This document shows, piece by piece, positions 17,199 through 44,978 of a stretch of DNA of 64,000 bases. How positions within the stretch are numbered: the first letter of the stretch is position 1; every line of letters starts with the position of its first letter. The DNA lies in the NCBI RefSeq assembly GCF_014200595.1, contig NZ_JACHCG010000002.1, positions 310,001 through 374,000 of the forward strand. Reading direction: 5' to 3'. Origin of the DNA: Pedobacter cryoconitis (lineage in GTDB: Bacteria; Bacteroidota; Bacteroidia; Sphingobacteriales; Sphingobacteriaceae). The notes below the pieces were generated by a model. It was not told the DNA's origin and searched no databases. It saw only the letters and a list, made by a program, of their open reading frames with translations. The position numbers and the translations under genes are program-made.

Positions 17199-18637
17199 AA
17201 TACGATTATTACGATTTAATTATTGTCGGGACCGGCTTCTCTTCTACATTTTTTCTGAAAAAGTATCTGGAAAAGAATAAAGGAGTGAAGAGGATCCTTG
17301 TGCTTGAACGCGGGCAGTTATTCCCGCATAGTGAAAGATTAAAGATCAAAAGAGGGGAGCTTGCTGATTCCCCGGCTTCGGGTAACGCGTGGGAAGATCA
17401 GATCATTAATAAAACCCCGGAGAAAAGATGGCCTTTTACCACTGCTTTTGGAGGAAGTTCCAATTGCTGGTGGGGATGTACACCGAGATTTATGCCATCT
17501 GATTTTAAAATGAAGACATTATTTGGAGTAGAAAACGACTGGCCGGTCACTTATGAAGAGCTTGATCCTTATTATGAGGAGGCAGAAGAACTGATGGCTA
17601 TTTCCGGACCAGAAGGAACACCTTTTCCTAAGAAAAGTAAATACCCGCTTCCACCTCATAATTTCAGTCCGATAGATAAAATACTGAACCAGAAATATGG
17701 AAATCAGTATATCAGCCAGCCTACTGCAAGAGCAAGCAGGGGTACAAAAGGAAGAAACCAATGTATGGCCAATTCAAGCTGTGATGTTTGCCCGGTAGAT
17801 GCTAAATTCACCATAGAGAATTCTGGTATTGACGTTTATCAGAATGCGCAGGTTGAACTTTTATATGGTGCACAGGTTTACCGTTTGGAAACCACAGGCA
17901 ACGTAGCAAAAAAAGTGTGTTACGTGAAAGACGGAAAGGATTTTGAGATCGCTGGAGAGGTTATCGTTCTGGGTGCTAATCCGATGTTTAATTCCAATAT
18001 TCTGTTAAATTCGGGTGATCGTAATCCATTGACTGGTAGAGGATTTGGAGAACAGCTTGGTATGCAGGTCTTAATTTATCTGGACAACCTGAAAAATACA
18101 GGGGGCAGTACCTGGGTAAATGCAAACGGTTATATGTTGTATGATGGCAATCACCGTAAGGATTATGCTGCCTGTTTGATCGAAACCAATAATGCACCTT
18201 ATAATATCCGGCTTGAAAGGGGTAAATGGTTAAACATGACTTCTTTCCGGATGATTTTTGAAGATTTACCATTGGTAACGAATTATATCACTACCACTTC
18301 AAATAAGCTGGTCCCTGAAATCAATTTTAAAGGAGGCCGGTCAGCTTATGCGCTGAAGGGAATGGAAAACATGAAAAAGGTTCTTCCGGGAATTCTATCG
18401 TGTCTTCCTGTTGAAAAATTGAAATTCCTTGATCCTTTTCCTAACGAAGGACATATTTTAGGGGGCACAAGAATGGGGAAAACTGCGGCAGACAGTGTGG
18501 TAGATAAAAATATGGTTCACCATCAGTACAGAAATGTTTTCGTACTGGGCAGTGGCTCGTTTACTACTTTTAGTGCATCAAATCCAACACTGACTTTATC
18601 AGCTCTGTCATTGTACTCCGCAGATCATTCATTTTAG
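17195..18637 (+). CDS. GMC-type FAD-dependent oxidoreductase
   Basis: A 480-residue flavoprotein of the glucose-methanol-choline family. Residues 8-20 (LIIVGTGFSSTFF) form the dinucleotide-binding GxGxxS loop; LERG follows at the second strand. A central GRNQCMANSSCDVCPVDAKF segment (about 187-206) carries a Cys cluster like that of gluconate or sugar dehydrogenases of this family. The C-terminus has HILGGTRMG (about 425-433) with a conserved His, VVDKNMVHH, NVFVLGSGSF and the NPTLT motif of the active site. No export signal is visible. It overlaps the UbiA gene by four bases and is followed two bases later by a small Tat-type protein, a common subunit arrangement. It may oxidise a polyprenyl-phosphate sugar; this is inferred. 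Confidence 0.8.
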   Translation: MKYDYYDLIIVGTGFSSTFFLKKYLEKNKGVKRILVLERGQLFPHSERLKIKRGELADSPASGNAWEDQIINKTPEKRWPFTTAFGGSSNCWWGCTPRFMPSDFKMKTLFGVENDWPVTYEELDPYYEEAEELMAISGPEGTPFPKKSKYPLPPHNFSPIDKILNQKYGNQYISQPTARASRGTKGRNQCMANSSCDVCPVDAKFTIENSGIDVYQNAQVELLYGAQVYRLETTGNVAKKVCYVKDGKDFEIAGEVIVLGANPMFNSNILLNSGDRNPLTGRGFGEQLGMQVLIYLDNLKNTGGSTWVNANGYMLYDGNHRKDYAACLIETNNAPYNIRLERGKWLNMTSFRMIFEDLPLVTNYITTTSNKLVPEINFKGGRSAYALKGMENMKKVLPGILSCLPVEKLKFLDPFPNEGHILGGTRMGKTAADSVVDKNMVHHQYRNVFVLGSGSFTTFSASNPTLTLSALSLYSADHSF

Positions 18638-18639
18638 CT

Positions 18640-19056
18640 ATGAAAAGAAGAAAATTCATCGCCATGGCAGGTATCGGGACAGGATTATTAATTCTTCCGC
18701 CTGCATTATATATCGCGTCGCCGGCACTGCGAAAACACGCTGTAATGTTAATCAGAGAAGAACTGTATTACCTGAAACTGGATACTGCCGGAGTAGATCA
18801 GTACGTCAATGATTATTTCAGTTCTTCGTCTAATAATGTAATCACTAATTTAAGGTGGAAAGCCTTTTATTATTTAGGGATCAAAGCGGAGAAATCAAAC
18901 CAGATCTTTGAATTGATTAAATTCTATCTGCTGTCAACAGATTTCTTTATCCATAAAATGGATGAAAGTAAACTGGTCAGCTATCTGGGGTTATATAGTC
19001 CTTATAAAAGCCCTGTTCCAAATCCTTATTCTTTTGTACTGTATCCTGCTGAATAA
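18640..19056 (+). CDS. Small twin-arginine-signal protein, possible dehydrogenase subunit
   Basis: A 138-residue protein starting MKRRKFIAMAGIGTG, an RR-containing N-terminus with a hydrophobic stretch (8-28) as in Tat signals or tethered small subunits. The mature part is predicted helical with many Tyr and Phe residues and no motif that I recognise. It starts two bases after the GMC gene, the position occupied by small Tat-exported subunits in gluconate 2-dehydrogenase-type complexes. It could be a chaperone-like or exporting partner of the GMC enzyme, which itself lacks a signal. Function not established. Confidence 0.6.
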   Translation: MKRRKFIAMAGIGTGLLILPPALYIASPALRKHAVMLIREELYYLKLDTAGVDQYVNDYFSSSSNNVITNLRWKAFYYLGIKAEKSNQIFELIKFYLLSTDFFIHKMDESKLVSYLGLYSPYKSPVPNPYSFVLYPAE

Positions 19057-19092
19057 TAAATAGCGTTTTTAGCTTAGAAACACAGTTTTATA

Positions 19093-19123
19093 AATTAATA
19101 CTACTATTTTAGTAGTATTAATT
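19093..19123. terminator. AT-rich 14-bp perfect inverted repeat ending the GMC operon
   Basis: AATTAATACTACTA (19093-19106) and its exact complement TAGTAGTATTAATT (19110-19123) are separated by TTT and followed by GTTTTTAC. It lies 36 bases after the small Tat gene and is the likely transcript end. Its last bases overlap the TTG of the promoter described next. Confidence 0.6.
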
Positions 19124-19152
19124 GTTTTTACGGTTTTTCATTCCTATCTTTA
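19122..19152 (+). promoter_or_regulatory. Bacteroidota sigma-ABfr type promoter for the sulfur-type leader
   Basis: TTG (19122-19124), a 20-base spacer and TATCTTTA (19145-19152), one base from the TAnnTTTG consensus. Transcription would start around 19157, some 34 bases before the small ORF at 19191. Confidence 0.55.
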
Positions 19153-19190
19153 GGATAGATAAGCTGAACCAATTTAAAAATACGCTCGCC

Positions 19191-19268
19191 ATGATTGCTA
19201 AATTACAACTTCAAAAATTATTGCTGACTGATTTAACAGGCAATTTTATGCGATGTTGTATGGCGTAA
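19191..19268 (+). CDS. Candidate 25-residue leader peptide with tandem cysteine codons
   Basis: A short frame with ATG start and TAA stop, encoding a peptide that begins MIAKLQLQKLLLTDLTG and ends MRCCMA. The two adjacent Cys codons (TGT TGT, 19254-19259) sit three codons before the stop. It follows a predicted promoter by about 35 bases and precedes a long GC-rich hairpin and a SAM-type riboswitch. Short leaders with Cys-Cys near the C-terminus are known from mycobacteria as cysteine-responsive attenuators; the likeness is in pattern only. It is not explained by either flanking protein gene. Coding status is inferred. Confidence 0.45.
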   Translation: MIAKLQLQKLLLTDLTGNFMRCCMA

Positions 19269-19361
19269 AGAATAACATTTGATCATATAATTTATGCTGT
19301 TGAATTGTTATTTAGCAGTTTTAAATCCACTCAATTACCGGAGCTGATAATCTTGATTTTA

Positions 19362-19445
19362 AAATCCTGATACCCCGGCGCATTTTGATGGAATATTATG
19401 GTGGTCATCTATTCTTTACAACAAAGCACCGGGGTATCAGGATTT
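19362..19445 (+). terminator. Long hairpin in the leader, possible attenuator
   Basis: The arm AAATCCTGATACCCCGGCGC (19362-19381) pairs with GCACCGGGGTATCAGGATTT (19426-19445) over 20 positions with a single mismatch, enclosing 44 bases. The 3' arm runs into TATTTT. It is much more GC-rich than its surroundings. It could be a terminator read through under control of the small Cys-Cys ORF, or a structural or processing element. Confidence 0.5.
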
Positions 19446-19490
19446 ATTTTAAATATACAGCTTTACCATCTAATTAATCACCACCATTAG

Positions 19491-19599
19491 TTAGTTGATT
19501 TATACAGAAGAAGGGAGAGGCAGTCTCGTTGAACTTCTAGCAACTTTCCATAGGAAAAAGTGCTCAACCTGATCCAGCAATGGATTATAAATTAATTAA
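19491..19599 (+). ncRNA. SAM-I (S-box) class riboswitch aptamer
   Basis: The four-helix SAM-I plan can be drawn by hand. P1 is TTAGTTGATTTAT (19491-19503) with ATAAATTAATTAA (19587-19599), 13 pairs including two G.T. P2 is AGAAG (19506-19510)/CTTCT (19534-19538) with a kink-turn-like internal loop GGA (19514-19516) opposite GTTGA (19528-19532) and an inner stem GAG/CTC closing loop GCAGT (19520-19524). P3 is AGCAACTTTCC/GGAAAAAGTGCT (19539-19564), the conserved GCAAC...GTGC core. P4 is ATCC/GGAT (19572-19585). The P2 loop CAG (19521-19523) can form the pseudoknot with CTG (19569-19571) of the joining segment. Between the aptamer and the first start codon (19734) only a weak CAGG/CCTG hairpin with a short T-run (near 19615-19629) is seen. 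Confidence 0.82.
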
Positions 19600-19733
19600 T
19601 AACAAGTAACTATTCAGGTTTCCTGTTTTGCTTCTTCGTAAGTGCTGTTCATTGGTATGAACTGGCGGGAATCGTTATGAGCTGGTGGCTTTGTTATGAA
19701 AGACTATAAAAATAGGACTTAACACTAATAAAG

Positions 19734-21038
19734 ATGATTATGAAAACTAAATTCTCCTCTAAACTGGCGGGGCTGCTGACTTCAGTCGTACTGATCAGCG
19801 GAACTGCCTCCGCAAATGATTCAAAACCCCTTCCAAAAGAAGGGATCTGGCGTGGTGTATTTACAGTCAGTGAATCGCAAGTTCCTTTTAATTTCGAATT
19901 TAAGGGGAAAGACTTAAAAAATGCACTGCTGACTTTGATCAATGGTTCAAGACGCGATGATTTTCATGTAGAGCGCCGTGGTGTGGATTCTATCTATGTA
20001 AAGATGAATACCTACGATGCAGCACTGGTCGCTAAAATTGAAGACAATGGTACCTTAACTGGTGAATATCGTAGTCTTGTACCCGGCTTCAGAGGTAATT
20101 CTCTCCCTTTTATAGCAGAATATGGTAAAAGCTACCGTTTTGTTGAACCAGGGAAAGAGATTGCTCCAAAACATAATATTTCTGGTAAATGGGAAATCAA
20201 AACCTACACTAAAGAAGCCGTCCCTGCATCTATCGCACTCTTAAAGCAATCGGGCAATAAACTAACAGGCGTGATTATGACCGTTGTTGGAGATACACGT
20301 GAACTGGAAGGTACTGTACAAGGTGATGAATTTGAACTTTCCGGTTTTACAGGCCCAAGCCCGTTTATTGTGAAAGGAAAAATCAATGACGATAACAGCA
20401 TCACAGGTGAACAAGGTTTTGGAATCTATAAGAACTTAAAGTTTGACGGTTTGCGGAATGAAAAAGCAGAATTACCGGATCCTTATAAACTGACTTTTTT
20501 AAAAGAAGGCTATAAGAAACTTGATTTCACTTTTCCAGATTTAAAAGGACAGCAAGTTTCCCTCAGTGATGATAAATACAAAGGTAAAGTTGTCATCATT
20601 GAGACTATCGGCACGTGGTGCCCAAACTGTACTGACCAGACGGTTTTTCTTGCTCCATGGTTTAAAAAGAATCAAAAACGTGGTGTGGAAGCTATTGCAA
20701 TAGGCTTCGAACAGAAAGACGATCTGGAATATGCAAAATACACGCTGGGTAAACTGAAAGAGAAATATGGGATTACCTATGATATCTTATTTGGTGGGAT
20801 AGCAGACAAAAAGATTGTTGCAGAAAAACTGCCTGCGCTCAACAAGTTTGTTGCTTTTCCGACGACGATCATTATTGACAGAAAAGGTGATGTCAGGGAA
20901 ATTTATACCGGGTATACCGGAACGGTTACCGGTAAATATTACGAGGAGTACGAAAAGAAATTCAATAAAGTACTCGATGAACTTATCGCTGAACCTGTAC
21001 CACAACTGGCAGTTGCTACAACGGCTGCCGGAAAATAA
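19734..21038 (+). CDS. TlpA-like periplasmic thioredoxin-fold protein, copy 1
   Basis: A 434-residue exported protein: signal peptide (about 1-28, ending TASA), an N-terminal beta-rich region that seems to contain two repeats of a lipocalin-like unit (about 35-145 and 150-245, each with 'G.....V......I.GEY/GEQ' strands), and a C-terminal TlpA/ResA-type domain (about 265-425) with the redox motif GTWCPNC (WCPNC about 301-305) and the cis-Pro-like AFPTTIIIDRKG. It may start at 19734 or at the second Met at 19740. It is the first gene behind the S-box riboswitch and stands 26 bases before a close paralogue. A thiol-disulfide role in the periplasm is the family expectation; the partner is unknown. 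Confidence 0.85.
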   Translation: MIMKTKFSSKLAGLLTSVVLISGTASANDSKPLPKEGIWRGVFTVSESQVPFNFEFKGKDLKNALLTLINGSRRDDFHVERRGVDSIYVKMNTYDAALVAKIEDNGTLTGEYRSLVPGFRGNSLPFIAEYGKSYRFVEPGKEIAPKHNISGKWEIKTYTKEAVPASIALLKQSGNKLTGVIMTVVGDTRELEGTVQGDEFELSGFTGPSPFIVKGKINDDNSITGEQGFGIYKNLKFDGLRNEKAELPDPYKLTFLKEGYKKLDFTFPDLKGQQVSLSDDKYKGKVVIIETIGTWCPNCTDQTVFLAPWFKKNQKRGVEAIAIGFEQKDDLEYAKYTLGKLKEKYGITYDILFGGIADKKIVAEKLPALNKFVAFPTTIIIDRKGDVREIYTGYTGTVTGKYYEEYEKKFNKVLDELIAEPVPQLAVATTAAGK

Positions 21039-21064: not shown

Positions 21065-22387
21065 ATGAGAACTAAAGTATCAAAAATAGGGGTGCTGGCA
21101 CTGGCTGTACTAGTCTCCTCTGCTTCTTTTGCTGCGGGCAGAACCGAAGATCCAAAAGCAGCTAAAAAATTCATTAAAGAAGGAATCTGGCGCGGTGTTT
21201 TTAAAGTGAGTGAAACTGAAGTACCCTTTAATTTCGAATTGAAAGGAAAGGATGTGGAACATGCGACTTTCACGCTGCTGAATGGCACGAGAAGGGATGA
21301 CTTTCATGTCGAATATCTGGGTAAAGACTCCTTGTTCATCAAGATGAATACTTATGACGCTGCATTAGTGGCTAAAATAGATAACGATGGGCAAATCAGC
21401 GGGGAATACAGAAGTCTTGTACCCGGACTGCGGGGGAATGCTTTGCCGTTTACTGCCGAACAAGGTAAATCTTATCGTTTTGTTGAGCCAGGAAAGGACG
21501 TAGCCCCTGCTGCCGATTTATCTGGGAAATGGGAGTTTAAAGGTTTCTCAAAAGAAGCTGTTCCCAATAAAATAGCCATTCTGAAACAAACGGGAAATAA
21601 ATTAACCGGGGTGATTTTGCAGGTAACCGGTGATAGCCGTGAACTGGAAGGAACCGTACAGGGAAATCAATTTGTATTGTCTGGATTTAGCGGCCCGAGC
21701 CCTAAAATTTATAAAGGGACAATCAATGAAGATGGAACCTTGTCTGGAGAAATTAGCCAGGGGATTTATGATAACCTGAAGTTTACAGGTGTTAAAGACG
21801 GCAAAGCGGAATTACCTGATCCTTATACCCTGACCGCGCTGAAAGCCGGGGTGAAAAAGCTGGCTTTTACTTTCCCTGACCTTACCGGTAAACCTGTTTC
21901 GTTAACTGATGAAAAGTACAAAGGTAAAGTGGTTATTGTGGAGCTGGTAGGTACCTGGTGTCCAAACTGTACAGATCAGACTATCTTTTTGTCTCCCTGG
22001 TTTAACAAAAATAAAACCCGTGGGGTAGAAGCCATTGCGATAGGATTCGAACAAAAGGACGACCTTGAATATGGTAAATATACACTCGGTAAGCTGCGTG
22101 ATAAATACAATATCAAATATGATATTCTTTTTGGTGGCCTGGCTGATAAAAGATTAGTTGCCGATAAATTACCTGCCTTGAACAAATTTGTGGCCTATCC
22201 GACCACGATCATTATTGACCGTAAAGGAGAAGTGCGGGAAATTTATACAGGTTATACCGGAACAGTGACCGGTAAATACTATGCAGAATACGAGAAGAAA
22301 TTTAACAAAGTACTGGATGAATTATTGGCAGAACCAGTTCCGCCAGCTTCTTATTTCAGTGCACAAATAGCAACCCAAAATCCTTAG
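21065..22387 (+). CDS. TlpA-like periplasmic thioredoxin-fold protein, copy 2
   Basis: Tandem paralogue (440 residues) of the preceding gene, matching it along the whole length, e.g. EGIWRGVF, MNTYDAALVAKI, GEYRSLVPG, GFEQKDDLEYGKYTLGKL and PTTIIIDRKGEVREIYTGYTGTVTGKYY. It has a signal peptide (about 1-23), the same two N-terminal beta-rich units and the redox site GTWCPNC (WCPNC about 297-301). The C-terminal tail diverges (PPASYFSAQIATQNP). Six bases separate it from the YceI gene, so it belongs to the same riboswitch-led transcript. The pair looks like a recent or selected duplication with both active sites kept. Confidence 0.85.
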   Translation: MRTKVSKIGVLALAVLVSSASFAAGRTEDPKAAKKFIKEGIWRGVFKVSETEVPFNFELKGKDVEHATFTLLNGTRRDDFHVEYLGKDSLFIKMNTYDAALVAKIDNDGQISGEYRSLVPGLRGNALPFTAEQGKSYRFVEPGKDVAPAADLSGKWEFKGFSKEAVPNKIAILKQTGNKLTGVILQVTGDSRELEGTVQGNQFVLSGFSGPSPKIYKGTINEDGTLSGEISQGIYDNLKFTGVKDGKAELPDPYTLTALKAGVKKLAFTFPDLTGKPVSLTDEKYKGKVVIVELVGTWCPNCTDQTIFLSPWFNKNKTRGVEAIAIGFEQKDDLEYGKYTLGKLRDKYNIKYDILFGGLADKRLVADKLPALNKFVAYPTTIIIDRKGEVREIYTGYTGTVTGKYYAEYEKKFNKVLDELLAEPVPPASYFSAQIATQNP

Positions 22388-22393
22388 AAAAAT

Positions 22394-23035
22394 ATGAAAC
22401 AAATAAATGCATTAGTTGCCATTGGAACAGTCCTGGCTCTTTCTTCCTTCTCTATTATCGATCGTATGGCTTTAGTGCCATTGAAAGACCCGATTGGGAA
22501 ATATGTAAAAGCGGTACCCTATAAAGTAGATGCGGCGCATAGCAAACTTACCTGGCTTGCCAAAAAAGTTACCGGAGAACATTCCGGGACTATAGCGGTG
22601 AGTTCAGGCGCACTCAATGTAGAGAATAATGTTTTAAGAAGCGGAAGCTTTGATCTGGATACCAAATCTATTGTGGTCACTGATATCACTGACAAAGAGA
22701 GTAACGCAAAATTACTTGGACACTTAAAGAGTGATGATTTTTTCGCTGTAGAGAAATTTGATAAAGCCAGGTTTGTGATCACCTCTGCGGTTTCTAAAGG
22801 TGCGGGTCTTTATGATGTTAAAGGCGACCTGACTATTAAAGGGATCACGAACGAAGTCAGCTTTCCTGCCAGCGTCAAAATTGACCAGTCTAAACTTACA
22901 GCGACTGCAAAAATACTGGTTGACAGAACTAAATATGGTATTAAGTTCAGGTCTAAGAGCTTCTTTGAGAACCTTGGGGACAAAACAATCTCTGATGAAT
23001 TTGAACTGAATATTCAGCTGGCGGCTACTAAATAA
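22394..23035 (+). CDS. YceI-like lipocalin-fold periplasmic protein
   Basis: A 213-residue YceI-family protein. Signal region 1-20, then the YceI barrel: YKVDAAHSKLTWLAKKVTGEHSGTI (in two halves about 42-66), GSFDLDTKSIVVTDI, KLLGHLKSDDFFAVEKFDKARFVIT (about 107-131) and DLTIKGITNEVSFPA (about 149-163). These match the family motifs for the 'L..HL.S.DFFD...P' loop. YceI proteins bind isoprenoid quinones or related amphiphiles. It is the third gene after the riboswitch and is followed by a terminator, so the unit TlpA-TlpA-YceI may function together in periplasmic redox or lipid-quinone handling. Confidence 0.88.
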   Translation: MKQINALVAIGTVLALSSFSIIDRMALVPLKDPIGKYVKAVPYKVDAAHSKLTWLAKKVTGEHSGTIAVSSGALNVENNVLRSGSFDLDTKSIVVTDITDKESNAKLLGHLKSDDFFAVEKFDKARFVITSAVSKGAGLYDVKGDLTIKGITNEVSFPASVKIDQSKLTATAKILVDRTKYGIKFRSKSFFENLGDKTISDEFELNIQLAATK

Positions 23036-23110: not shown

Positions 23111-24076
23111 ATGCTGATGATCCCCGTTAAAATAAACGTTTTTCTGCTCATGAGTTTCCTGGTATTTATTCTTGCTGGCTTTGGAGCCGATGATCCTGCC
23201 GTCATTAATAGTAAAGAAAAGCTCGGAGAAAAACTTTTTTTTGATCCGGTACTCTCCAAAGATAAATCCATTAGTTGTTCATCGTGCCATAAACCGGAAT
23301 TTGCATTTGCCGATACCTCAGCAGTGAGCCTGGGAGTTGGCGGTACTAAAGGCACCAGGAACTCTCCGTCCATCACGAATCTTTCCGGTCGCCCAACGCT
23401 GTTTTGGGATGGAAGAGTAGCTTCTTTAGAGGAACAAGCACTTCAGCCTATTATCAATCCGGTTGAAATGAACCTTCCTATTGCTGAAGCAGTGGAGCGT
23501 TTGAAAACAGATCAGGCTTATGCAGATTTATTTCAAAAAATCTTTAATAGCCCACCCACTGAAAAAAATCTATTGCTGGCTATTGCTGCTTATGAAAGAA
23601 CGCTCGAAACAGCTAATAGTCCTTATGATCGTTATATCAATGGAGATGACCAGGCCGTTTCTGCCTCTGCCAAACGTGGAAGACTGCTCTTTATCGGGAA
23701 AGCAAATTGTAACAATTGTCATTCTGGAGAAGACTTTACTGCTGACCGTTTTAAGGGAATCGGGTTATTCAATGAAAACGACCTTAAAGATGCAGGCCGG
23801 TATGAGGTGACCAAAAATCCGGAGCATAAAGGACATTTTAAAATACCAGGGCTGAGAAATGTGGCCTTAACAGCACCATATATGCATAATGGGATGTTTA
23901 AAACTTTGAAAGATGTAATCAGATATTACAATAACCCCGATTTGATTATCAAAAATGGTAAAAATAGAGATCTGTCCTTAAGTAAACCTCTGGGATTGTC
24001 TGAAGATGAAATTACTGACCTCGAGTCATTCCTGATTTCATTAACCGATGACAGATTTATAAAGAAAAAGCCATGA
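23111..24076 (+). CDS. Di-haem cytochrome c peroxidase/MauG family protein
   Basis: A 321-residue periplasmic protein with a signal peptide or anchor (about 8-25) and two haem c attachment motifs, CSSCH (56-60) and CNNCH (200-204). Other family landmarks are KLFFDPVLSKDKSISC, GTRNSPSITNL, LFWDGRVASLEEQALQPIINPVEM in part, and KIPGLRNVALTAPYMHNGMF with a Met/His ligand region (about 246-266). It would reduce hydrogen peroxide or act like MauG on a protein or small-molecule target. It follows the TlpA-YceI unit after a terminator and precedes a TonB receptor. Confidence 0.9.
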   Translation: MLMIPVKINVFLLMSFLVFILAGFGADDPAVINSKEKLGEKLFFDPVLSKDKSISCSSCHKPEFAFADTSAVSLGVGGTKGTRNSPSITNLSGRPTLFWDGRVASLEEQALQPIINPVEMNLPIAEAVERLKTDQAYADLFQKIFNSPPTEKNLLLAIAAYERTLETANSPYDRYINGDDQAVSASAKRGRLLFIGKANCNNCHSGEDFTADRFKGIGLFNENDLKDAGRYEVTKNPEHKGHFKIPGLRNVALTAPYMHNGMFKTLKDVIRYYNNPDLIIKNGKNRDLSLSKPLGLSEDEITDLESFLISLTDDRFIKKKP

Positions 24077-24179: not shown

Positions 24180-26948
24180 ATGAAACAAATTTTACTCTTA
24201 TTTTTTCTTCTGGGCGTGCTGATCTCGCCAAATACATTTGCGCAGCAAAGAACAATCAATGGCATCATTTATTCCGCAGAAGATCATCTGCCTTTGCCGG
24301 GTGTTTCCATTCAGATCAAAGGACTGGATGGGGTTACGATCTCTGCAAAAGATGGATCTTTTAAAATACCAGTTAAAAATGGAAGATTTCTGGTCATTTC
24401 CTATATCGGTTATAAAACCCGGGAAGTGGAAATTGGAAAATCTGCCACATTTAATATCAACCTGGAGCAAGCTGATAATAATCTCAATGAGTTACAGATT
24501 GTTGGTTCACGCAGTGCGAACAGAACCAAGTTAAATTCTCCGGTTCCGGTTGATATTATCGACCTGAAATCCTTGCAGGAATATGCTCCTCAATCCAGTG
24601 TTACCCAATTACTCCAATATGTATCTCCTTCTTTCCATTCCTCAGTTTCCGGAGGTGGCGACGCGGCCTCAGCAACCTCTACGGTTCAGCTCAAGGGATT
24701 GGGAGTGGACCAGGTATTGGTGCTGGTCAATGGTAAAAGAAGACATAAAAGCTCGAACATCAGCTGGGGTGGATTAGGCAATGGTGCAACCGGGTATGAC
24801 CTGAACTCAATTCCTGTCGGAGCAATTGAAAGAATTGAAATATTGAGGGATGGTGCGGCGGCGCAATACGGATCTGATGCCATTGCCGGTGTGATCAATA
24901 TCGTATTGAAAAGTAACGTTGACCAGTTAACGGTGAGTACCATTGGAAGTATTCGTGGCAGAGGAGATGGCTTAACTACCCGGACCAATGCTAATTTTGG
25001 CGTTAAGTTAGGATCTAAGGGTTATTTCAATGTGACCGGAGAATATGCAACACAAGCAGTCTCATTGCCTGTAGGAAAAAGTTCTGATGGAATTTATATT
25101 GGCCCTGCTTATGGAGGAGGAGCTAATACAAGGGGTTTCGATCAGATTTATACCAAAGAAATTGATGATGCTATACTGGCTTCAAGGGGTATTGACCGTC
25201 ACTTTTTCGATCAGCGCGGATCTACCAATAAAGCTATAGACGGTCTGCTCTCTTTTAATGCAGCTATCCCTTTGAAAGATGGATTTGAAATCTATTCTTT
25301 CGGAGGGATTAGTCATCGCAATTCCCAATTTACTGCGGTTTACAGATTGCCTGGCTGGACAGAGCGAAATAATACTTTTGTTTATCCGGATGGATTTCTG
25401 CCTGCAATGGATAACATTATCACAGATCAGTCTTTTGCGGTTGGTGTGAAAGGGAAAATAAAAGAATGGAATGTAGATGTATCCAATGTTTACGGAAGAA
25501 ATGCTTTTGATAATATCATTACCAATTCTTTGAATGCCAGTTTGGGACAAAAAACACCGAGAACATTTAATGCCGGCAGTTATAATGCCTCACAAAATAG
25601 TGGTAGTATTGATTTTACACGGAGATTCCAGCAGGTATTGAGTGGCTTGAATGTTGCTTTCGGTGGTCAGTACAGAGTAGAAACTTATCAGATTAAAGCA
25701 GGAGAGGAAAGTTCGTATTCCAAAGCAGATCTGAGCCCGATTTATGATGTACAATATACTACCGGAGGTATTCCATATTTTAATAATATCGGCAGTACAC
25801 CTTTGAATGGATTATCTCCGGGCTCACAAATCCATGCTGGTTTCCGGCCTGGTAATGCTGTGGATGTCAAGCGCTCTATTTCTGCTGCTTATGCTGATCT
25901 GGAATTGAACGTCACTAATAAATGGTTGGTTTCCGGTGCATTTCGTATAGAGAATTACTCTGATTTTGGAAGTGTGAGTACTTTCAAAGCAGCCACACGG
26001 TATAGTTTTGCCAAATGGCTTGCTATCAGAGGAGGATATAACACAGGTTTCCGGGCCCCGGATCTGGCTCAGTTTTATTATACAGAAACCTCTACTACTT
26101 TCCAGAATGGGGTTGCAATTGACCAGGTGACCGCCAATAATGTAAACCCTGCTACTAAAGCGCTTGGGATACCAGCCCTGCAACCAGAAAGGTCTAAAGG
26201 ATACTCAGCAGGAATTACTTCACAACCTTTACAAAATATAGAATTGACCCTTGATGCTTATCAGATCGATATTAAAGACAGGGTAGGGAATACCGGACGC
26301 TTTTCTGCGACGGATACCAACCTGCCTGCTGATGTAAGAGCGTTATTTGTACAAACCGGAACTGTACAGGCCAAATTCTTTTATAACTCATTTAGTACAA
26401 GAACTAAGGGAATTGAATTTACAGGGAGCTATAAATTCTTATTGCCTGATGGATCAGGTGCCGCATTTTTAGCCGGTGGTAATTTTCAGCAAACCAGGCT
26501 GACCAAAGTAAATACCCCTAAAGGACTGGAAGCTTATCGTTATATTATTTTTGATGAAAGTGAGAAGGCCCGGGTTACTTCAAGTATCCCTGCTACTAAA
26601 ATCACTTTGCAAGGCACTTATAATTATAAGAAAATCAATCTGCTGCTCAGAACTGTATACTTTGGTAAAGTGACAGCAGTGAGCCAGCTCAATGCTAACT
26701 TTCCTCAGCCGGATTATTACTATCAGGACTTCAACCCGGTCTGGATTACAGATTTTTCTGCCGGATACCGGATTACTCCTGAATTGCAGGCGACAATCGG
26801 GGTAAACAATTTATTCAATGTGCTGGGTGATTATTCTATTCCCGCGCCGGGAAGTAATATTACCAGAACTCAGGCCCCAAGCGCCAGTCAGGCAGGTACA
26901 ACTACAGGTATTCAGCCATTTATCAGGTTATCAGCTACTTTTAAATAA
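24180..26948 (+). CDS. TonB-dependent receptor (non-SusC type) with CarboxypepD-regulatory-like domain
   Basis: A 922-residue outer membrane receptor. Signal peptide about 1-21 (ending TFAQ), a carboxypeptidase-regulatory-like domain (about 24-105), plug about 115-245 containing VLVLVNGKRRHKSS and ERIEILRDGAAAQYGSDAIAGVINIVL in two pieces, and a barrel with GYNTGFRAPDLAQFYY. The plug is of the classical siderophore/cobalamin type (LVNGKRRH, RDGAAAQYGSDAIAGVINIV) rather than SusC, and no SusD follows. Its partner is the DUF4397 lipoprotein gene eight bases downstream. Ligand unknown; the peroxidase and thioredoxin neighbours suggest a redox-active or metal-containing ligand. Confidence 0.92.
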   Translation: MKQILLLFFLLGVLISPNTFAQQRTINGIIYSAEDHLPLPGVSIQIKGLDGVTISAKDGSFKIPVKNGRFLVISYIGYKTREVEIGKSATFNINLEQADNNLNELQIVGSRSANRTKLNSPVPVDIIDLKSLQEYAPQSSVTQLLQYVSPSFHSSVSGGGDAASATSTVQLKGLGVDQVLVLVNGKRRHKSSNISWGGLGNGATGYDLNSIPVGAIERIEILRDGAAAQYGSDAIAGVINIVLKSNVDQLTVSTIGSIRGRGDGLTTRTNANFGVKLGSKGYFNVTGEYATQAVSLPVGKSSDGIYIGPAYGGGANTRGFDQIYTKEIDDAILASRGIDRHFFDQRGSTNKAIDGLLSFNAAIPLKDGFEIYSFGGISHRNSQFTAVYRLPGWTERNNTFVYPDGFLPAMDNIITDQSFAVGVKGKIKEWNVDVSNVYGRNAFDNIITNSLNASLGQKTPRTFNAGSYNASQNSGSIDFTRRFQQVLSGLNVAFGGQYRVETYQIKAGEESSYSKADLSPIYDVQYTTGGIPYFNNIGSTPLNGLSPGSQIHAGFRPGNAVDVKRSISAAYADLELNVTNKWLVSGAFRIENYSDFGSVSTFKAATRYSFAKWLAIRGGYNTGFRAPDLAQFYYTETSTTFQNGVAIDQVTANNVNPATKALGIPALQPERSKGYSAGITSQPLQNIELTLDAYQIDIKDRVGNTGRFSATDTNLPADVRALFVQTGTVQAKFFYNSFSTRTKGIEFTGSYKFLLPDGSGAAFLAGGNFQQTRLTKVNTPKGLEAYRYIIFDESEKARVTSSIPATKITLQGTYNYKKINLLLRTVYFGKVTAVSQLNANFPQPDYYYQDFNPVWITDFSAGYRITPELQATIGVNNLFNVLGDYSIPAPGSNITRTQAPSASQAGTTTGIQPFIRLSATFK

Positions 26949-44522: not shown

Positions 44523-44607
44523 TACTCAGAGCGGGAATCGAACCCGCACGACTTTTAAGGTCACAGGATTTTAAGTCCTGCGTGTCTACCAGTTCCACCA
44601 TCTGAGC
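44523..44607 (-). tRNA. tRNA-Leu (anticodon TAA), copy 2
   Basis: 85 bases on the reverse strand. Acceptor GCTCAGA/TCTGAGT, anticodon loop CTTAAAA (anticodon TAA) on stem CAGGA/TCCTG, long variable arm and T-loop GTTCGATTC. Sequence is the same as the copy 250 bases upstream. CCA is not encoded. Confidence 0.94.
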
Positions 44608-44655
44608 AGGTGTTAAACCTTTTAAAAATAAAAACCTTCTTAGAGAAGGCTTTAG

Positions 44656-44728
<73 letters not shown>

Positions 44729-44772
44729 ATTGGTATAGTATTATCGGTTCTGTATAACTTTATACAGTTGAG

Positions 44773-44857
44773 TACTCAGAGCGGGAATCGAACCCGCACG
44801 ACTTTTAAGGTCACAGGATTTTAAGTCCTGCGTGTCTACCAGTTCCACCATCTGAGC
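44773..44857 (-). tRNA. tRNA-Leu (anticodon TAA), copy 1
   Basis: 85 bases on the reverse strand with the same acceptor, anticodon (TAA), variable arm and T-arm as the tRNA at 44523-44607; offset exactly 250 bases. Confidence 0.94.
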
Positions 44858-44905
44858 AGGTGTTAACCTTTTAAATAAATGCCTTCCGGTAAAGAAGACA
44901 CTTAG

Positions 44906-44978
<73 letters not shown>

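Follow-up and report, generated by a model that had tools for sequence, protein, structure and literature searches.

Can a member of the Bacteroidota gauge its cysteine supply by translating a short leader peptide? The question is raised by a 25-codon open reading frame (ORF) in a 64,000-nucleotide (nt) stretch of Pedobacter cryoconitis DNA (NZ_JACHCG010000002.1, positions 310,001-374,000), here called the window and used for all coordinates. This upstream ORF (uORF) ends in a tandem pair of cysteine codons and lies in the mRNA leader of a tlpA-like operon, ahead of an S-adenosylmethionine (SAM) riboswitch. Comparison with related genomes leads us to propose, with a probability of roughly 0.7, that the stretch 19191-19268 is translated as a leader uORF and serves to gauge the supply of cysteinyl-tRNA, with SAM repression and a promoter operator as further inputs. 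The elements on which the argument turns are the following:

19122..19152, + strand: Bacteroidota-type promoter TTG-N20-TATCTTTA (TTG at 19122, TATCTTTA at 19145)
19191..19268, + strand: Cys leader uORF encoding MIAKLQLQKLLLTDLTGNFMRCCMA, 25 codons plus stop, ATG at 19191
19254..19259, + strand: TGT TGT, the tandem Cys pair at codons 22 and 23 of the uORF
19497..19593, + strand: SAM-I riboswitch aptamer RF00162 (56.2 bits against a gathering cut-off of 44.4)
19734..21038, + strand: TlpA/ResA-like thiol-disulfide protein with an AhpC-TSA domain (Pfam above cut-off; NCBIfam matches below cut-offs)

An earlier, sequence-only reading of this stretch had described a 25-codon ORF with the terminal residues MRCCMA, together with a promoter and a SAM riboswitch in the same leader. 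The ORF is exactly as described, and the other two elements are both present. The uORF stop stands 228 nt from the aptamer and 465 nt from the TlpA-like gene. TTG and TATCTTTA are separated by exactly 20 nt, and the consensus behind the promoter assignment is one that we take to be of the Bacteroidota type; transcription is predicted to start at about 19157-19160. A short leader ORF whose Cys codons cluster just ahead of the stop is characteristic of Cys-codon leader peptides of the attenuator kind, and the element has this make-up.

The sequence-only reading had named the start, the frame and the Cys pair as features whose loss in relatives would speak against it. All three are kept in the closest named records, P. 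cryoconitis DSM 14825 (L040) and S3M1 (L041), where changes are in-frame only, the uORF of DSM 14825 (MIAKLQLQKLLLTDLTGNFMRCCLLA) has one extra codon with the frame intact, and the distance from TATCTTTA to the uORF start is 46 nt, as in the window. Xaverov 94 (L048), likewise labelled P. cryoconitis, carries a different, unrelated peptide that also bears a Cys-Cys (CC) pair, MIYSNQPTENTLNLWSEDCLCCCL. In remoter relatives the same leader holds unrelated short ORFs that are again Cys-terminated, for example MKLRRQPQPYPLINYSDQYNCCCR, MKTSIRIYFPMHDHPNRCMENCCCCRCCMC, MKLLYRIPDHCCARA, MNLKSNSITKPRIQNGGILFCCCPYC and MKNLKFCCCMCM. At the DNA level the ORF region aligns along its length in just one other genome (G022, with the ORF MIPKIQPQKLLLTDLPGNFMRCCMS) among 99 genus genomes searched, and G080 gives a 44-nt partial match inside a long open frame. 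A single CC mini-ORF on its own is unremarkable, because ATG ORFs of 8-60 amino acids that carry CC among their nine C-terminal residues number five on the window's + strand (the uORF included) and nine on its - strand; significance arises only from cross-species comparison.

Conservation of Cys Codons Across tlpA Leaders

The test used as much as 1 kb of the sequence preceding tlpA in 40 Pedobacter and Mucilaginibacter loci, chosen from 78 fetched. One of the 40 is a metagenome-assembled genome labelled only Sphingobacteriaceae, and the 38 omitted loci comprise Chitinophaga, Dyadobacter, Pontibacter, proteobacteria and others, plus a distant Mucilaginibacter paralogue (L109). For each of the 20 amino acids, loci were scored for ATG ORFs of 8-60 codons with a doublet of that amino acid among the nine C-terminal positions. 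The Cys doublet was found in 39/40 loci in the forward direction and 1/40 in reverse, against a mean of 2.8 (standard deviation 1.3, maximum 5) in 60 shuffles. The sole miss (L070) has RCCWVQYTFWF after its aptamer with CC further from the stop, and a looser criterion gives 40 of 40. Over all 78 loci, a CC uORF occurs in 42 forward and 7 reverse. Six of the seven reverse cases are Dyadobacter ORFs with RCCPAD, and because these resemble the CCPGDK uORFs behind Dyadobacter SAM aptamers, this control is probably contaminated by true cases. The CC uORF at tlpA is not a product of chance.

The other frames of the underlying tract TGTTGTTG would encode LL or VV. Since LL, found in 23 loci against a shuffle mean of 21.0, is not enriched, and VV, found in 12 loci against a mean of 6.1, is enriched far less than CC, it is the reading frame that is conserved. 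The Met doublet (5 of 40 loci) equals its shuffle maximum.

The 40 loci yield 56 distinct peptides; clustering these with Cys masked (single linkage, local BLOSUM62 score 30) leaves 17 groups, of which two are an obvious short pair and one (L054, L068) belongs to a neighbouring SAM leader. On this comparison, Cys codons near the stop are what persists while sequence and position vary. Across 29 leaders, the ten C-terminal residues are 35% Cys and the others 1.3%, with Cys in runs of 2-5 placed 0-7 residues before the stop, although this set, like a set of 18 leaders used below, was hand-picked and selected for CC, so that the terminal Cys content is partly by construction; the Cys content of the window's long ORFs is 0.66%. 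Pairwise comparison of the final 11 codons of nine 29-residue uORF2 sequences from Mucilaginibacter gives 20, 55 and 111 differences at codon positions 1, 2 and 3, and two of the Cys codons swap TGT and TGC. Both patterns speak for translation of these uORFs. A blind search of 59 genomes with the DNA pattern TGTTGYTGYMGNTAA (Cys-Cys-Cys-(Arg or Ser)-stop) placed 3 of 40 matches, fetched from a longer list, in an ATG-started frame and proved useless without context.

Placement Beside SAM Aptamers

An Rfam SAM aptamer lies beside tlpA in 32 of the 40 loci, and in 23 of these 32 the CC uORF begins 9-11 nt past the aptamer 3' end; CC ORFs lying 43 and 81 nt past the aptamer (L042, L047) were treated as chance. 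In the window lineage the CC uORF is instead upstream of both the aptamer and a hairpin, H1, and some Mucilaginibacter loci have both placements. The RNA elements between uORF and aptamer in the window are:

19362..19445, + strand: H1 hairpin with a conserved stem (AATATTATGGTGGTC, invariant in 12 Pedobacter loci), followed by the T-rich ATTTATTTTA
19398..19405, + strand: ATGGTGGT in the H1 apex, with 8-nt complementarity to 19480-19487
19470..19494, + strand: CCACC stem-loop CTAATTAATCACCACCATTAGTTAG with ACCACCAT as its loop, read from the sequence and adjoining the aptamer

The pairing of aptamer and uORF recurs at other genes. The source genome has four SAM leaders, two of which (tlpA and metY) carry a Cys-run uORF. 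In the metY leader (L172, G000:C1 near 1764817, - strand), the uORF MKTNHQPSQSGDSVSYTIQYLQTIACMCCCIG lies 8 nt past the aptamer and has the C-terminus IACMCCCIG; the gene matches TIGR01326 above its cut-off. The other two are TonB-type and, presumably, metH-type, and a CC uORF after the aptamer is absent from both; in the metH-type leader a CC ORF overlaps the aptamer start, with CC far from the stop.

A wider draw of 99 genomes, which we take to be Bacteroidia, contains SAM aptamers in 71. The count covers 93 of 98 aptamers, two of the other five being below cut-off. A CC uORF starts within 200 nt after the aptamer in 11/93, and CC in the last nine residues is found in 9/93 after the aptamer versus 2/93 before it. 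Downstream of the aptamer the Cys doublet is the most frequent of all, with Phe near (8 after, 6 before). Eight of the 11 CC uORFs start at -1 to +13 nt of the aptamer end, and six precede metY-like genes, so called by sequence resemblance except in L172. In three Dyadobacter leaders (L087, L088, L097; - strand) the SAM aptamer is followed, after 7 nt, by a uORF with CCPGDK, and in L097 a YceI gene lies downstream.

A separate observation concerns uORF1 of L054, L062, L064, L065, L067, L068, L071, L073 and L077, which has a conserved AATGGTGG, read as NGG. This motif complements a CCACC stem-loop just upstream and stands a few codons before the Cys codons; an attenuator switch built on this complementarity is possible.

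A Palindrome Shared with tRNA-Cys Genes

Immediately upstream of the promoter lies a further element:

19094..19122, no strand assigned: perfect 29-bp palindrome, candidate operator, core ACTACTATTTTAGTAGT at 19100-19116

The palindrome shares one base with the promoter, the first T of the -33 TTG. Its form is CTACT-N5-AGTAG, and the pattern searched across the genus was WCTACTWWNWWAGTAGW. The loose pattern gives six sites in the source genome, two of which look coding and were taken as chance. Of the other four, one heads the tlpA leader and one a TonB-type gene with MKNSLHFLTSSPISFSAIALKKIACCTSS; the remaining two precede a tRNA-Cys gene and a peroxiredoxin gene, the latter with no TAnnTTTG match between palindrome and gene. 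A two-mismatch search of the source genome returned 48 sites versus 126 for the control and was dropped.

The neighbours of the sites are more informative. A CC uORF lies within 160 nt in one orientation at 12/46 sites, compared with 5.6% of random window pairs from the same loci; two of these 12, the possibly fortuitous L138 and L159, show overlap with a tRNA or with the beginning of a gene. At 8/46 sites (L036, L125, L128, L138, L142, L146, L151, L157) a tRNA-Cys (GCA) gene follows 31-90 nt downstream, with a TATATTTG promoter between. Other genes behind the site encode TonB receptors, PhyH-type dioxygenases, amino-acid permeases and fatty-acid-hydroxylase-type proteins (one of each checked), and the common palindrome and promoter also head Cys leaders of TonB-receptor and dioxygenase genes. 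tRNA-Cys genes are apparently under a candidate operator common to sulfur leaders. The palindrome could be a mere terminator of the upstream gene; an operator is preferred, though not proven, because the palindrome also precedes, at short distance, the promoters of unrelated genes and of tRNA-Cys. The link to sulfur first suggested from the sequence alone gains support from tRNA-Cys behind the same candidate operator and from metY leaders with like uORFs. Among the downstream genes, metY and tRNA-Cys belong to sulfur or cysteine metabolism, and tlpA does so only by association with the SAM aptamer.

Proposed Mechanism

A Cys run before the stop, without a common peptide sequence, suits a gauge of Cys-tRNA and does not suit a peptide ligand. 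When Cys-tRNA is scarce, the ribosome would slow or halt on the Cys codons just 5' of the uORF stop, and the stalled ribosome would hold the downstream leader in a permissive state in which the tlpA operon is expressed. When Cys-tRNA is ample, the ribosome would complete the uORF and depart, and expression would drop. The SAM aptamer in the same leader would add SAM/methionine repression, and the promoter operator with its putative binding factor would provide a third input, common with tRNA-Cys. The scheme builds on features present in the genomes themselves (the uORF, its conservation, the Cys runs, the SAM aptamer and the association of operator with tRNA-Cys), from which we infer translation, stalling and the direction of control. 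The sensing step, in which the Cys codons report Cys-tRNA, is likely on these grounds. The earlier interpretation as a cysteine-responsive leader is strengthened by the conservation of the CC uORF and by the tRNA-Cys and metY links, and its regulatory role is still one that we infer. More tentatively, and at somewhat less than even odds, we suggest a two-signal sulfur leader of the Bacteroidia that joins a SAM aptamer to a Cys-run uORF, with SAM gating uORF translation (the aptamer is often ~10 nt upstream), the tRNA-Cys-shared operator as a third layer, and loop-loop coupling of uORF, H1 and aptamer in Pedobacter.

The downstream step is the least certain part of the favoured mechanism. No conserved intrinsic terminator was found in a scan of 18600-19800 or in 18 leaders compared with 15 shuffles, scans that are blind to the long loop of H1. 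Four of the 18 leaders scored above all 15 shuffles, each time with the hairpin inside the uORF and not after it. The tail of H1 is T-rich in the window, L040 and L041 (6-7 T of 10) compared with 0-2 of 10 in eight other Pedobacter loci, and H1 may be an intrinsic terminator in the window lineage only. In the 29 leaders, the first 50 nt after the stop contain 308 C versus 193 G, with C exceeding G in 26/29, and the next 50 nt contain 275 C versus 296 G. Given that these scans turned up no conserved intrinsic terminator and that the 50 nt following the stop are C-rich and G-poor in most relatives, Rho-dependent termination after ribosome departure serves as a working guess; it is a doubtful one, rated lower because H1 has its T-rich tail in the window lineage. 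The C-rich stretch would fit Rho loading that is masked by a stalled ribosome, as in the proposal for Actinobacteria and the report on CruR described below.

Several observations weigh against the proposed mechanism. First, the window leader has only two Cys codons; with ~100 nt between them and H1, a stalled ribosome would not reach the hairpin sterically, and no antiterminator pairing that involves Cys codons emerged. Second, the 60 nt upstream of the uORF are likewise richer in C than in G in 21/29 leaders, and the window's own leader shows no excess of C in the 50 nt past its stop (4 C, 8 G). Third, doublets of Val (12 loci against a shuffle maximum of 10), Pro (10 against 9) and Trp (4 against 3) also slightly exceed all 60 shuffles, the 40 leaders are kin and not 40 independent events, and ten MKxRRQ and nine QNGG peptides are without third-position bias. 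Finally, a search of 60 genus genomes gave 49 sites for WCTACTWWNWWAGTAGW versus 43 for the reversed control pattern, so that enrichment of the site is not claimed and only the neighbours of sites count.

Alternative Explanations

The Cys-rich nascent peptide could bind a metal (copper, zinc) or sense oxidation in the manner of CruR, and so control the TonB-receptor/TlpA/di-haem operon. The genes downstream of the first tlpA-like gene are:

21065..22387, + strand: second TlpA-like paralogue (family searches)
22394..23035, + strand: YceI-like protein (family search)
23111..24076, + strand: di-haem cytochrome c peroxidase/MauG-MbnH-like protein (Pfam CCP_MauG; NCBIfam matches below cut-offs)
24180..26948, + strand: TonB-dependent outer-membrane receptor (family search)

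The TlpA-like, YceI, MauG/MbnH-like and TonB proteins could also suit copper handling, and an extract of the CruR report places that ORF likewise at the head of a TonB-receptor operon (PMC9426467). However, the peptides considered here have 12-59 residues with adjacent Cys runs, RAPP is found by eye in 0/29, and the same uORF type precedes metY and shares its candidate operator with tRNA-Cys, which makes control by a metal or by oxidation unlikely.

Control might also reside in the RNA alone, through H1, the CCACC loop and the SAM aptamer, with the ORF as a by-product. H1 is strongly conserved: pairs kept with both sides changed number 6/23 among 12 Pedobacter sequences and 9/23 among 24 further sequences. 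Its apex has an invariant TGGTGG, the complement of a CCACCA found in leaders of 39/40 loci (not L060), and this complementarity, being invariant, is beyond covariation testing. A loop-loop contact of the H1 apex with the CCACC stem-loop beside the SAM aptamer is possible, and the 3' arm of the stem-loop at 19470-19494 may compete with an extended aptamer P1. The T-rich tail of H1 in the window lineage would suit RNA-only control as well. We nevertheless hold such control to be very unlikely, since the doublet test is frame-specific and, among 12 operator-headed leaders compared by eye, H1 is in only the tlpA one (L153).

At tlpA, H1 is conserved in Pedobacter and takes another form in Mucilaginibacter, where the loci compared have a TATCTTTA- or TACCTTTA-type promoter-like element between H1 and aptamer, so that H1 and its uORF may be on another transcript there. 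An H1 model search of 31 genomes recovered only the tlpA site, in five genomes, and in the source genome the same site on both strands. In L053 (2447-2566), L055 (2462-2581) and L061 (2460-2579), an H1-type hairpin is found close to where a cysteine-desulfurase-type gene ends (family search for L053 only). There tlpA has its own operator and promoter-like element further downstream, so the hairpin may be an element of the 3' untranslated region or a small RNA.

The uORF might instead make a functional small Cys-rich peptide, or a product resembling ribosomally synthesized and post-translationally modified peptides, with its leader location incidental. Some families are indeed conserved beyond the Cys run, such as the RCCC..QYAFWF-type ends of nine Mucilaginibacter uORFs. 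We give this idea very little weight: masking of Cys separates the peptides into 17 groups, their common feature is Cys near the stop, and the NGG motif of one family is explicable at the RNA level as the complement of a nearby CCACC stem-loop. That the ORF is a chance frame, functionless in P. cryoconitis, is far-fetched and strongly disfavoured by the CC uORF in 39/40 leaders, as well as by its conservation in L040 and L041 and the uORFs at operator sites, even though CC mini-ORFs arise singly by chance in the window at the counts given above and full-length DNA alignment reaches only G022.

Relation to Known Leader Systems

Canestrari et al. reportedly described, in 2020, mycobacterial polycysteine short ORFs that are leaderless according to the title; in the window, the start codon would instead lie ~33 nt inside the predicted transcript. 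The further comparisons draw on extracts of the cited papers. Mycobacterial polycysteine ORFs have been linked to translation attenuation (PMC13236596). In Actinobacteria, Cys leader peptides have a Cys-codon run near the stop and no obvious terminator hairpins, and Rho has been proposed to act (Seliverstov et al., 2005; PMC1262725). These are alike in the short ORF with a Cys run near its stop and in the sulfur genes, and differ in phylum, in the SAM aptamer and common operator present here, and in the genes served, which here are tlpA, TonB receptors and metY and not the cys operon.

The uORFC-8-2 family of Rhodobacterales cysS has two tandem Cys codons, usually at positions 14-15, and an intrinsic-terminator stem, and ribosome-mediated attenuation by tRNA-Cys charging has been proposed (PMC8632094). 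The tandem Cys codons are shared; that family, however, serves one gene with a terminator stem, whereas here many genes are served, no conserved terminator was found and the Cys run is at the ORF end. The window uORF does not belong to it, its downstream gene being tlpA-like and not cysS. The window aptamer is a member of the SAM-I family (RF00162) that differs by sharing its leader with a Cys uORF. Joint action of a riboswitch and a translated uORF in one leader is described for M. tuberculosis metE/ppe2 (PMC11260477), where the ligand is B12, the phylum is another and the abstract mentions no Cys run. CruR is an exported protein of ~145 residues with CXXC and a C-terminal RAPP, responds to a copper signal, and is reported to block Rho by stalling (PMC9426467). 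The likeness is a Cys-bearing leader ORF at the head of a TonB-receptor operon; the window peptide, with 25 residues, adjacent Cys and no RAPP, falls outside CruR/DUF2946.

Transcriptome papers on Bacteroidota mention leader peptides that, in the extracts, are not tied to cysteine (PMC9723704; PMC7366714). Among the matches listed from the open-licence literature, none describes a Cys leader in Bacteroidota and none a SAM aptamer joined to a Cys uORF. If the proposal is true, leader-ORF sensing of cysteine-tRNA extends to the Bacteroidota, and the combined logic of riboswitch and leader peptide becomes testable within one leader, with cysteine read via codons and SAM via the aptamer. Cys runs that precede a stop and closely follow a SAM aptamer or CTACT-N5-AGTAG would then offer a genome signature for the sulfur regulons of the phylum, and the TlpA, TonB and dioxygenase genes behind such leaders could be read as sulfur-supply functions.

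Elsewhere in the window, at 44523-44978 on the - strand, a tRNA pair is duplicated in tandem, with Rfam scores identical between the copies.
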